Shown: one piece after another, positions 19,474 to 49,022 of the stretch
Position numbering within the stretch: the stretch's first letter is position 1
Layout of the letters: every line of letters starts with the position of its first letter
Assembly (NCBI GenBank): GCA_016184115.1
Contig: JACPDH010000085.1
Location: 1 to 56,698, forward strand
Direction: 5' to 3'
DNA: 56,698 bases
From: Acidobacteriota bacterium
GTDB taxonomy: Bacteria > Acidobacteriota > Thermoanaerobaculia > Gp7-AA8
Program-made: the position numbers and the translations under genes
Notes under the pieces: generated by a model
The model's input: the letters and a program-made list of their open reading frames with translations, nothing else
What the model was told of the DNA's origin: nothing
Databases searched by the model: none

Positions 19474-20702
19474 CCTTCGAGGAGTCGCTCCTCACCGCGC
19501 TCGCCAACCTGCGCGCGCACAAACTGCGAACGACGCTCACCATGCTCGGCATGATCTTCGGCGTCGGCGCGGTCATCGCGATGCTCTCGATCGGCGCCGG
19601 AGCCGAAAAGCAGGCGCTCGCCTCGATCGGAAGTCTCGGTGTGCGCAACGTCCTCATCCGAACGACCGAGCTCGATGACGAAGAAACGAAGGAGATCCGA
19701 AAGAAGTCGCTCGGTGTCTCGATCCGCGATGGTGAAGCGATCGCCGAGGCGGTCGACGGCGTCGAAGCGGTGCTCCCGCGCATCGAAGTCAAAGTGCACC
19801 GAATCTCCTCGGCGGGACGCAAGACCGAGGGAAAGGTGCAGGGCGTTGCGTGGACGAGCTCTCGTGCGCTGCCGCTCGTCGAGGGACGCAGCCTCGACGC
19901 ACGCGACGAGTCGACACACGCCCAGGTCTGCCTCATCGGCCCGAGGATCCGCAACGAGCTCTTCGGCTACGGCACCGCGGTCGGCCGGACGCTGAAGGTC
20001 AACGACGTCTGGCTCGAGGTCGTCGGCGTCCTCGGTTCGTCGCCGGGAAGTGCATCGAAGGTCGAGGGGATGCCGGCGATGTCGACTTCACGCGAGATCT
20101 ATCTGCCCGTCTCCACCGCGCAGCGGAAGTTCGACCGCAACCCGCTCGACTCCCCGGTCGACGAGCTCGTCGTCCGGCTGCGTGTAGGCGTCTCGCCCGC
20201 CGCGTCCGCGGAGCTGATGAAGACACTTCTCGACCGGCTCCATGCTGGAGAGAAAGACTACGAGATCATCGTCCCTGAAGCGCTGCTCGAGCAGAGCAGG
20301 AAGACGCAGAGGATCTTCGCGATCGTGATGGGCTCGATCGCCGGAATCTCGCTCCTCGTCGGCGGGATCGGGATCATGAACATCATGCTCGCGTCGGTGC
20401 TCGAGCGGACGCGCGAGATCGGCATCCGCCGCGCTCTCGGGGCGCGGCCCAAGGACATCCGCACGCAGTTCGTGATCGAAGCGTTCTCGATCAGCATCGC
20501 CGGCGGCTTCGTCGGCATCGTCACGGGAGTTGCGCTCGCGCGCGTCGTCGCGGCCTCGGCCGGCTGGCCGACCGTGGTGACGATCGCGTCGCTCGTACTC
20601 TCCACTGGCGTGTCGATGCTCGTCGGCCTCGCGTCGGGAATCTACCCCGCCATGCGCGCCGCAGAGCTCGATCCGATCGAAGCGCTCAGTGCTAAGTCCT
20701 GA
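19470..20702 (+). CDS. MacB-type ABC transporter permease (FtsX-like)
   Basis: A 410-residue permease of the MacB/LolE family. N-terminal TM1 with ALANLRAHKLRTTLTMLGMIFGVGAVIAML, a large periplasmic domain (about residues 45-270), then three C-terminal membrane segments with the hallmark GGIGIMNIMLASVLERTREIGIRRALGA and a final PAMRAAELDPIEALSAK. These proteins use mechanotransmission to push substrates from the periplasm through TolC. No ATP-binding subunit or fused nucleotide-binding domain is present in the operon. The ATG at 19470 overlaps the third adaptor's stop. The last codons and the stop TGA lie inside the heptamer array that follows. Confidence 0.93.
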   Translation: MTFEESLLTALANLRAHKLRTTLTMLGMIFGVGAVIAMLSIGAGAEKQALASIGSLGVRNVLIRTTELDDEETKEIRKKSLGVSIRDGEAIAEAVDGVEAVLPRIEVKVHRISSAGRKTEGKVQGVAWTSSRALPLVEGRSLDARDESTHAQVCLIGPRIRNELFGYGTAVGRTLKVNDVWLEVVGVLGSSPGSASKVEGMPAMSTSREIYLPVSTAQRKFDRNPLDSPVDELVVRLRVGVSPAASAELMKTLLDRLHAGEKDYEIIVPEALLEQSRKTQRIFAIVMGSIAGISLLVGGIGIMNIMLASVLERTREIGIRRALGARPKDIRTQFVIEAFSISIAGGFVGIVTGVALARVVAASAGWPTVVTIASLVLSTGVSMLVGLASGIYPAMRAAELDPIEALSAKS

Positions 20703-20989
20703 GTCCTCAGTCCTCAGTCCTGAGTCCTCAGTCCTGAGTCCTAAGTCCCGAGCCCTGAGTACGGGGTGTGCTGAGCGACAAACCGCGAGGACTCAGCAGG
20801 GAGAGCGCAGGAACGACACATCGCACTGAGTAGATGTCCAAGGCCGTTTTGGCTCGATTCGCGCGGTTCTACGAGTTGGAGTACTGGAGACCCGCCCTGA
20901 AATCAGCGATCAACATCGCAAACCCAATACTAGGTACTCAGGACTAAGGACTCAGGACTCAGGACTGAGGACTCAGGACTGAGGACTCA
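20684..20989. repeat. Facing heptamer arrays (AGTCCTN) between convergent genes
   Basis: About ten units of the pattern AGTCCTG/AGTCCTC run from about 20684 to 20760. The inverted version (GGACTCA/GGACTGA) runs from about 20934 to 20989. They can pair into a long stem around a loop of about 170 bases. The TGA stop codons of both convergent neighbours (permease at 20700-20702, gpsA at 20989-20987) are part of the repeat word TGAGTCC. It is not CRISPR: there are no spacers. No promoter or gene is seen in the loop. Confidence 0.9.
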
Positions 20990-24489: not shown

Positions 24490-24736
24490 TCCTCCGAGTC
24501 CTTAGTCCTTAGTCCTCAGTCCTTAGTCCTCAGTCCTTAGTCCTGAGTCCTTAGTCCTTAGTCCTTAGTATCACGTACCGGGAAAGCAACAGCGAATCCA
24601 ACGCAATCCACTCGTGACGGTGATTCGGAGAAGCGACTGGGGCAGACTGCTCAGCACTCAGGACTGAACACTCAGGACTGAGCACTCAGGACTAAGGACT
24701 AAGCACTCAGGACTAATGACTAAGGACTAAGGACTG
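24490..24736. repeat. Second facing pair of AGTCCTN heptamer arrays
   Basis: About ten AGTCCTT/AGTCCTC units run from about 24496 to 24569. Inverted units (GGACTAA, GGACTGA, with CACTCA variants) run from about 24650 to 24736, leaving a core of about 80 bases. The pair fills the gap between the mccA-like and mccB-like genes, so any read-through transcript would form a very long hairpin before the mccB ribosome site. Same word family as the array at 20684-20989. Confidence 0.9.
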
Positions 24737-27334: not shown

Positions 27335-27369
27335 TCGGCCGGTTAAGCCCAATGGCCTGAACTTCGGGA

Positions 27370-27484
27370 CGAAAGTCTCGAAGTTAGAACGATGAACGAC
27401 GAAGTTTGAACCCAGAAAAGGGCCCCGGGCGGGGGTTTCAGGGTTCAACATTCACCGTTCTACGTTCTAACTTCGAGACTTTCG
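27370..27484. repeat. Long imperfect palindrome with 22-bp perfect outer arms
   Basis: 27370-27391 and 27463-27484 are perfect inverted copies over 22 bases (ends CGAAAGTCTCG). A second stem TTGAACCC (27406-27413) with GGGTTCAA (27441-27448) lies inside. The centre holds CCCCGGGCGGGGGTTTC. The arms themselves read as degenerate heptamers (CGTTCTA, CGTTCTA, ACTTCGA). The same core and right arm reappear at 33401-33470. Confidence 0.85.
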
Positions 27485-27533
27485 GCCCTAAGTGCCCCTT
27501 TCGCTAAATTCGACGACACCGGCGAAGAGCCAT

Positions 27534-46806: not shown

Positions 46807-48675
46807 CTATGACCGTTGGCCGCTGGCCTGCCTCTCCACGAAGCCGTCGAACACTTCGAGCGCGAGGTCGGCGCGACCGAGAGGCGCAGAGACCTGGCAG
46901 CCGGCAACGTCGGGGCGCACGCGCTGAAGCACTTCGCGCGCGATCGCAATCCCTTCGTGCAGTGCATGCTCGCGGCTCTTCTCGTTGGCGATGCGCATCC
47001 GCTCGATGACGTCGTCGGGCACGGTGACCCCCGGAACTTCGTTATTCATGAACTGCGCGTTCCGGTAGCTGAGGAGCGGCCAGATTCCGACGACGACGGG
47101 GAGGTGCATCCACTCGATCCGGCGGAGGAAGCTCTCGAGCTGCGAAGCGTCAAAGACAGGTTGCGTGATCGCGTACTCGGCGCCCGCCTTCACTTTCCAA
47201 TCGAGGCGCGCAAGCTCGTGGTCGAGGTCGAGGTGTGCAGGGTTGACACCGACGCCGATCGTGAACGACGTCGGCTTGCCGAACGGGTTCCCGCCGAGGT
47301 CGAGTCCGCGGTTCATGAGGCTGACCATGTTGGTGAGGCCGATCGAGTCGATGTCGAAAACCGCGGTCGCCTCGGGGTAGGGGCCCATCTTGGGCGGATC
47401 GCCTGTGATGAGCAGCAAGTTATGGAGACCGAGGGCAGCGGCGCCTAACAGGTCGGAATGCATGCCGAGCAGATTGCGGTCGCGGCAGCAGTAGTGAAGT
47501 ACGGCCTCGACGCCGGCCGTTTGCTGGATCAGGAGGGCGACCGCCATCGCCCCCATCCGGTTTTGCGCGCGCGGACCGTCAGGAACATTGACGGCGTCGA
47601 TACCGGCGGCTTCGATGAGTCGCACGCTCTCGAGCATCCTGGCCGGGTCGGGACCCTTCGGCGGGACGATCTCGATCGTGGTTACGAACTCGCCGGTCGC
47701 GAGCTTCCTCCCCCACCGCGAGCGCTCCGCCATCGGAACCGGCTGCACGCCAGCCGCGCTCTCGTGGCGCTCGCGATCGACCGCGACGAGCTGGCGGCGT
47801 GGAGAGAGCGGGCGCACGCTGTCGGCAACGTACTTGATGTGCTCTGGCGTCGTCCCACAACAACCACCGATGTACTTCACCCCTTTCTGGATCAGTCGCT
47901 TCGCGTATCTGGCGACGTACTCCGGAGAGGCCATGTACATCTGGCGTCCATGGACCTCACGCGGAAGCCCTGCGTTAGGCTGGCACGAAATGCGCTTGTT
48001 CGTGACAGCGGCCATCTCCTCGATGGCGTCGAGCATGACATCGGGACCGACCGAACAGTTCAGGCCGATGACGTCGGCCTTTGTGGCGTCGAGGCGACGG
48101 GCAATCGCGCGCGGCGTGTCTCCATAGGTCGTCCGGCCATCCTGGCCGATCGTCATCTGCGCGATGATCGGAAGCGAGCAGATGTCGCGGATCGCAAGGA
48201 TTCCCTGTTCCATTTCGGCGATGTTCGAGATCGTTTCGAGAACGAAGACGTCAACGCCGCCCGACATCAGCGCCTTCGCCTGAATGCGAAACCAGTCGCG
48301 CGCTTCCTCGAGCCCCGTGGGGCCGTACGGCTCGAGCCGGATACCAAGCGGACCGATGGCCCCTGCGACGAAGACGCCGTCACCCGCCGCCTTGCGCGCA
48401 AGCTGCGCCCCTTTCTCGTTGATCGCGTCGAGCTCCTCGTTGAGCCCGAACGCACGAAGCTTGGGGACGTTTGCCCCGTAGGTGTTGGTCTCGATGATCT
48501 CGGCTCCGGAACGGACGTATTGCCGGTGCACGTCGAGCACGATCTCCGGATCGCGGAGGTTCAGCTCGTCGTAGCAGCGGTTGATGAACACGCCGCGCTG
48601 GTAGAGCATCGTTCCCATCGCTCCGTCGAAGAGGTAGATGTGCGAATCGGCGAGCGTCTGGATGAAGTCCTGCAT
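46807..48675 (-). CDS. Homocysteine S-methyltransferase / methylenetetrahydrofolate reductase fusion
   Basis: 622 residues (YitJ-type). The N-terminal domain (about 1-300) is a zinc-dependent homocysteine methyltransferase barrel: FDGAMGTMLYQRG, ETNTYGAN, and zinc Cys207 (GLNCSVG) and Cys272/Cys273 (GGCCGTTP). The C-terminal domain (about 325-610) is an FAD-dependent MTHFR: EIVPPKGPDP, NVPDGPRAQNRM, LLITGDPP and AITQPVFD. It lacks the cobalamin and activation domains of full MetH, so the methyl acceptor/donor partner is encoded elsewhere or the domain works alone. The ATG has AAGGA about 9 bases upstream. A SAM-II-like riboswitch and terminator precede it. The final codons and stop fall in a heptamer array, so the last ten residues (FVERQASGQRS) are repeat-derived. 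Confidence 0.93.
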   Translation of the reverse strand: MQDFIQTLADSHIYLFDGAMGTMLYQRGVFINRCYDELNLRDPEIVLDVHRQYVRSGAEIIETNTYGANVPKLRAFGLNEELDAINEKGAQLARKAAGDGVFVAGAIGPLGIRLEPYGPTGLEEARDWFRIQAKALMSGGVDVFVLETISNIAEMEQGILAIRDICSLPIIAQMTIGQDGRTTYGDTPRAIARRLDATKADVIGLNCSVGPDVMLDAIEEMAAVTNKRISCQPNAGLPREVHGRQMYMASPEYVARYAKRLIQKGVKYIGGCCGTTPEHIKYVADSVRPLSPRRQLVAVDRERHESAAGVQPVPMAERSRWGRKLATGEFVTTIEIVPPKGPDPARMLESVRLIEAAGIDAVNVPDGPRAQNRMGAMAVALLIQQTAGVEAVLHYCCRDRNLLGMHSDLLGAAALGLHNLLLITGDPPKMGPYPEATAVFDIDSIGLTNMVSLMNRGLDLGGNPFGKPTSFTIGVGVNPAHLDLDHELARLDWKVKAGAEYAITQPVFDASQLESFLRRIEWMHLPVVVGIWPLLSYRNAQFMNNEVPGVTVPDDVIERMRIANEKSREHALHEGIAIAREVLQRVRPDVAGCQVSAPLGRADLALEVFDGFVERQASGQRS

Positions 48676-48700
48676 GTCGTACCGTCCTTCGACTCCGCGA

Positions 48701-48730
48701 AAAGAAAAACGCCCCGCGGAAAACGGGGCG
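48701..48730 (-). terminator. Intrinsic terminator in the leader of the methyltransferase gene
   Basis: On the minus strand a CGCCCCG/CGGGGCG stem with a short TTTTCCG-type loop (48730-48710) is followed by a run of T (48709-48701). It lies between the SAM-II-like aptamer and the start codon at 48675, so it would stop transcription before the gene. This is where an expression platform is expected. Confidence 0.85.
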
Positions 48731-48747
48731 TTGGGAAAAGACTTCCT

Positions 48748-48807
48748 TCCGCAGCGTCTTTAGCTTTTTTTAGGCTGGTTGCAAGCGGCCCCAAATCAAT
48801 CCAGCTG
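48748..48807 (-). promoter_or_regulatory. SAM-II-like riboswitch aptamer
   Basis: Read on the minus strand, P1 GCTGG (48805-48801) pairs with CCAGC (48778-48774). The 22-base loop holds the diagnostic GATTT, CCGCTTGCAA pattern. After P1 come an A-rich stretch and AGCTAAAGA. The loop CCGC (48788-48785) can pair with GCGG (48752-48749) to make the H-type pseudoknot. These features match the SAM-II consensus (loop CCG..UGCA, then GCUAAA, then CGG). Gene context (homocysteine methylation to methionine) and the terminator directly after it agree. SAM-V, which has a similar core, is the main alternative. Confidence 0.8.
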
Positions 48808-48852
48808 ACAACAATGTAGGCCCTGCGTGAGGGGTGTGTCAAACGGGCGGGG

Positions 48853-49013
48853 AAGTTGGTTGTTGGTTGTTAGTTGTTAGTTGTTAGTCGCGCGTCGCGG
48901 GGTGCTCGAATCGCCCGTCGCCGGTGCGCTTGATGGAACGGAACCACGCCACGCGTTTCTCCCGTCCAGCTCGCGTCGCCGGTCCAACAACCAACAACTA
49001 ACAACTAACAACC
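48853..49013. repeat. Facing heptamer arrays of GTTAGTT/GTTGGTT units
   Basis: Five units (TTGGTTG, TTGGTTG, TTAGTTG, TTAGTTG, TTAGTCG) occupy 48855-48889. Inverted units (CAACAAC, CAACTAA) occupy 48985-49013. About 95 bases separate them. The pair lies between the TPR gene's stop (49023) and the riboswitch leader. Same architecture as the AGTCCTN pairs but an unrelated word. Confidence 0.85.
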
Positions 49014-49022
49014 TGCGCCCCC

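Follow-up and report, generated by a model that had tools for sequence, protein, structure and literature searches.

A probable SAM-II riboswitch with a transcription terminator upstream of methionine synthesis genes in one order of Acidobacteriota

Results

The leader of a homocysteine methyltransferase/methylenetetrahydrofolate reductase (HcyMT/MTHFR) fusion gene in the window (the whole stretch of 56,698 nucleotides that was analysed) very probably contains a SAM-II riboswitch that switches methionine synthesis off by transcription termination (probability of about 0.87). At high SAM concentration, the leader RNA would fold around SAM, with P1 and the P2 pseudoknot in place, after which the terminator would form and leave the HcyMT/MTHFR gene untranscribed. 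At low SAM concentration, one aptamer strand would base-pair with the 5' terminator arm while the 3' arm is still to be synthesized, and the polymerase would read through. Promoter, terminator, gene context and a homologous, conserved aptamer are all observed at this locus; SAM binding, the direction of control and the kinetics of the switch are what we infer.

On the minus strand, the promoter (48842-48813) is followed by the SAM-II-like aptamer (48810-48750), the terminator (48732-48708), a candidate Shine-Dalgarno sequence and the ATG (48675). The -35 box TTGACA (48837-48842) and the -10 box TACATT (48813-48818), located 18 nt further downstream, together present 10 of 12 consensus matches (0.1 expected from shuffles), and the RNA would begin close to the first nucleotide of the aptamer. 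A sigma-70-like promoter scoring at least 9/12 was identified in 27 of 35 distinct members of the motif, nearly always 6-9 nt before P1. The original prediction of a terminator between the aptamer and the start codon is confirmed: the hairpin AACGCCCCGT-TTTCC-GCGGGGCGTT, followed by the T-rich tail TTTCTTTT, has a stem of 10 bp, a loop of 5 nt and a predicted energy of -17.6 kcal/mol. The possible Shine-Dalgarno sequence GAAGGA (48685-48690), identified by sequence, precedes the ATG by 9 nt. The target gene (46807-48675, minus strand) encodes a bifunctional protein of 622 aa with the domains PF02574 and PF02219, and its score of 731.7 bits against NCBIfam NF006396 (cut-off 453) agrees with the predicted YitJ-type fusion. 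The attribution of the host to Acidobacteriota was also supported, as MAGs labelled "Thermoanaerobaculia" and "Acidobacteria gp7 AA8" have orthologues with 77% identity.

The SAM-II covariance model RF01726 matches positions 48810-48750 of the minus strand with 41.0 bits (E = 2.2e-6 for the 601 bases searched; E = 3.8e-6 for the same match over the 4.4 Mb genome). Despite this significant E-value, the score is 3 bits short of the gathering score of 44 bits; an Rfam scan of the window at gathering thresholds therefore reported no match. Of the two families initially proposed for the Infernal check, RF00521 (SAM_alpha) gave 27.6 bits (E = 3e-4) for a cut-off of 36 bits, and RF01826 (SAM-V) gave no match at E<=10 in a permissive scan of the leader. 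The lineage model R1 scores the window copy, which belongs to its training set, at 75.5 bits. Simple MFE folding of the leader gave a z of -1.5. Rfam matches to ncS54 (27 bits) and suhB (22 bits) were rejected, as they rest on the terminator hairpin. Judged from its sequence by architecture and E-value, the element is a SAM-II aptamer; judged by the curated cut-off, it lies just outside the family. The gathering cut-off is a curator's bound and not a structural feature.

The SAM-II layout that had been recognised is fully present, and it is kept across the order at the same gene. P1 pairs GCTGG (48801-48805) with CCAGC (48774-48778); in a structural alignment of 33 sequences, its 5 bp are paired in 98% of cells and covary, the first pair being G-C in 16 members and C-G in 14. 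L1 forms the 5' strand of the pseudoknot (48787-48797, GATTTGGGGCC region) and includes the triplex strand GATTT and the 5' strand of P2b, GGC (48790-48788); in relatives, its GGGGCC is predicted to double as the anti-terminator strand. The 3' strand of the aptamer (GCTAAAGACGCT, 48753-48764) carries the conserved SAM-binding GCTAAA, then the 3' strand of P2b. The window leader also displays the loop with GATTTGGGGCCGCTTGCAA, an A-rich run, GCTAAAGA (48764-48757) and GCGG (48752-48749). The positions in contact with SAM (third-strand U, U:A.U triple, U and A of UAAA), whose roles are taken from PMC6061858, are present and nearly invariant in the alignment. Three copies (L002, L099 and L077) read GCCTAAA in place of GCTAAA in the SAM-binding strand, with one additional C.

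The strands UUGC/GCUAA of the P2 pseudoknot are invariant in all 33 aligned sequences, and its outer helix GGC/GCC is paired in 97% of cells with almost no covariation. The CCGC/GCGG register of the original prediction has to be abandoned, as it is paired in 56% of cells across relatives, and the alternative register 26-29/62-65 (79% of cells) was rejected as well. P2b has only 3 bp. In the window copy, GACGCTGCGG replaces the GAGCCGGCA of relatives in the 3' strand of P2, and the outer helix therefore needs a register shifted by one base and a G-U pair, the partner of GGC being GCU, one position later (GCT 48755-48753); nearly all relatives have GCC there.

We searched the class with the lineage model. 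The SAM-II motif was found in 19/19 genomes of the order (the 18 genomes of the window's family and one other genome); it was absent from the 130 genomes that make up the rest of the class. This order is probably GTDB Gp7-AA8, an assumption based on members such as "Acidobacteria bacterium gp7 AA8" and a Thermoanaerobaculia MAG. The usual number is two copies per genome, one before the HcyMT/MTHFR fusion gene and one before metH; in the window's genome, the second copy is upstream of metH. All 33 members examined lie directly upstream of one of these two genes, with for instance metH after L002 (TIGR02082, 1667 bits). Three genomes have a single copy: a contig end truncates the second target gene in G074 and G042, and no HcyMT/MTHFR fusion gene was found in G070, a genus mate. 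None of the copies in the order is at or above the RF01726 cut-off (32-43.5 bits vs. 44), which means that the Rfam cut-off overlooks an entire conserved clade. A close relative of the motif was also observed in the uncultured bacterium 3300027893_57 (L077, 1016-1074; R1 67.8 bits, the sequence having been used to train R1). Its P1 is GGTGG/CCACC, the fusion gene downstream of it is 56% identical, and no matching terminator is present.

SAM-I riboswitches were detected in 47 genomes of the class outside the order, and in 0/19 genomes within it. At two SAM-I loci of sister orders, the next gene is homologous to the fusion gene of the window, with about 40% identity. SAM-II thus stands where sister orders have SAM-I on a homologous gene, which is most simply read as one class of SAM riboswitch having taken the place of the other at this gene.

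Two G residues of L1 (48792-48791) are conserved yet have no partner inside the aptamer. Nearly all terminators of the order start with GGCCCC or AGCCCC, which are complementary to the GGGGCC or GGGGCU of L1. We folded nascent transcripts ending at the terminator loop with ViennaRNA, which predicts nested structures only and leaves pseudoknots out of its reach. The MFE fold joins L1 to the 5' terminator arm in 27 of 29 members, compared with 37% for shuffled arms and 26% for other terminators of the window's genome (controls drawn from about 300 kb). In terms of expected pairs, this pairing concerns 28 of 31 members (90%), vs. 20% with unrelated terminators of the same genome. Moreover, the loop-arm energy is -16.0 kcal/mol for own pairs and -14.7 kcal/mol for swapped ones, a value as strong being reached in 0/5000 swaps, and in 1/5000 when swaps were confined within metH or fusion groups; these statistics, like the folding ones, ignore kinship, and some rows are near-identical genomes, so that the counts are not independent. 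A recognisable terminator was found in all but three members (L101, L104 and L108). In this order, the complementarity between loop and terminator exceeds chance, and the folds suggest that the anti-terminator would normally be built from L1 (GGGGCC with GGCCCC).

The window copy is one of the two exceptions to L1-arm pairing in the MFE fold. Folding would here favour the 3' strand of the aptamer, which pairs with the terminator at -22.0 kcal/mol (AAGACG/CGTTTT and GCG/CGC), vs. -18.6 kcal/mol when the L1 fold (GGGGC/GCCCC) is forced. This 3'-strand pairing is matched by 5 of 29 control terminators and, taken alone, is no better than chance; among 26 control terminators, 15% attain the loop/arm energy of the window copy, -11.8 kcal/mol.

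SAM-II is known mainly from Proteobacteria, Bacteroidetes and marine samples. The window case had been presented as extending this range. The presence of SAM-II in Acidobacteriota stands, but the claim was too strong for a single case, because at least five other families of the phylum (f37, f47, f79, f80 and f90) have SAM-II-like leaders. These were detected as weaker matches of the lineage model, and six loci (L199, L200, L212, L210, L207 and L201) are above the RF00521 threshold, with 36.3-53.6 bits. Many of the loci outside the order precede frames that, by eye, resemble metH, HcyMT/MTHFR, O-acetylhomocysteine sulfhydrylase or aspartokinase genes. In our literature search, to which neither McCown et al. 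2017 nor the complete Rfam listing belonged, no paper reporting SAM-II from Acidobacteriota came up.

In the nested folds predicted for these other families, the 3' aptamer strand is the partner of the terminator at 13 of the 15 loci that have one (93% vs. 26% for swapped arms and 24% for unrelated terminators). For the metZ loci of S. meliloti and Shinella, the predicted fold also has the terminator arm paired with GGCCGG, the 3' strand of P2; these two rhizobial loci form the whole non-Acidobacteriota sample for strand wiring, and their strands are self-complementary, which makes either side usable. Since both groups pair the terminator with the 3' strand, the L1 wiring looks particular to the order. 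We consider it reasonably probable that the SAM-II switch changed strands in this order, with a 5' (L1) anti-terminator and two competing pseudoknots (or an open P1), the 3' strand being used elsewhere. If true, one aptamer class would have two opposite wirings to a terminator, which suggests that the switching strand can change while the aptamer stays fixed.

Two other loci deserve mention. In another Acidobacteriota family (G481), a SAM-II above the Rfam cut-off (L143, 6292-6230 minus; RF01726 48.6 bits) precedes a gene for a 1058-aa TonB-dependent, Oar-like outer-membrane receptor and not one for a methionine enzyme. In this SAM-II, L1 (GATTTGTGG) has a perfect complement downstream, CCACAAATC. 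L201 carries tandem SAM-II matches about 90 nt apart (1652-1596 and 1508-1455 minus; 34.7 and 21.2 bits).

Discussion

Among known systems, RF01726 is the long-loop SAM-II, listed for "Bacteroidetes, marine" (PMC2864571). The copies of the order share with it P1, the third strand GATTTG, TTGCAACC, the A-rich linker, GCTAAAG, the P2 pseudoknot and the methionine genes downstream; they differ from it by their origin in Acidobacteriota, their systematically lower scores, the extra conserved GG of L1 unused by P2b and the complementarity of L1 to the terminator arm. The SAM_alpha or metA motif (RF00521; PMC1273637) has the same aptamer architecture and promoter-proximal position and is often followed by terminators, but its model scores the window copy below the cut-off and the terminator arm of the rhizobial metZ loci does not pair with L1. 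SAM-V (RF01826) has a nearly identical SAM pocket according to the literature (PMC6061858), but it acts on translation and its model finds no match in the window leader. The SAM-I riboswitches (RF00162) of sister families also precede a homologous homocysteine methyltransferase gene, but their aptamer is unrelated.

Terminators after many SAM-II aptamers were already known (PMC1273637, PMC9373788), and how SAM-II aptamers control expression was described in a survey as not experimentally established (PMC2258182). The terminator could be constitutive, with control by translation, or could merely limit expression, as reported for S. meliloti metA, for which no response of the terminator to SAM is predicted (PMC9373788). 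The anti-terminator of the window copy, not above chance by itself, is compatible with this explanation, which is nevertheless improbable: P2 leaves the Shine-Dalgarno sequence uncovered, the candidate GAAGGA being about 60 nt downstream, and in the lineage the terminator arm matches the aptamer loop. Control by termination is thus the preferred reading, and the lineage provides a family-wide comparative case for transcriptional control by SAM-II.

A derived RNA with the SAM-II fold could also sense another ligand such as SAH, which belongs to the same pathway, and the score under the Rfam cut-off would fit such a derivation. We regard this as very unlikely, given that the sulfonium-reading U:A.U triple is preserved along with the UAAA contacts, that GATTT, CTTGC and GCTAAA are invariant or nearly so, and that the target genes are methionine synthases, as with SAM riboswitches. 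Finally, although the window copy deviates from its relatives in the 3' strand of P2, a chance or decayed match has a negligible probability, chance being ruled out because the motif is kept at the same site before the same gene in every genome of the order, with an invariant core and a covarying P1.

Outside the SAM-II leader itself, we observed long intergenic inverted repeats in the window (20685-20989, 24496-24736, 27361-27493 and 48849-49022), the last of which adjoins the riboswitch promoter on its upstream side. Three of the four consist of degenerate 7-bp tandem words (AGTCCTC/AGTCCTT; GTTGTTA/GTTGTTG). The word GTTAGTTGTTAGTTGTT occurs 26 times in the genome and 0 times in the reversed control, and similar CCTGAGTCCTGAGT arrays follow the terminator in three relatives (L092, L098 and L109).
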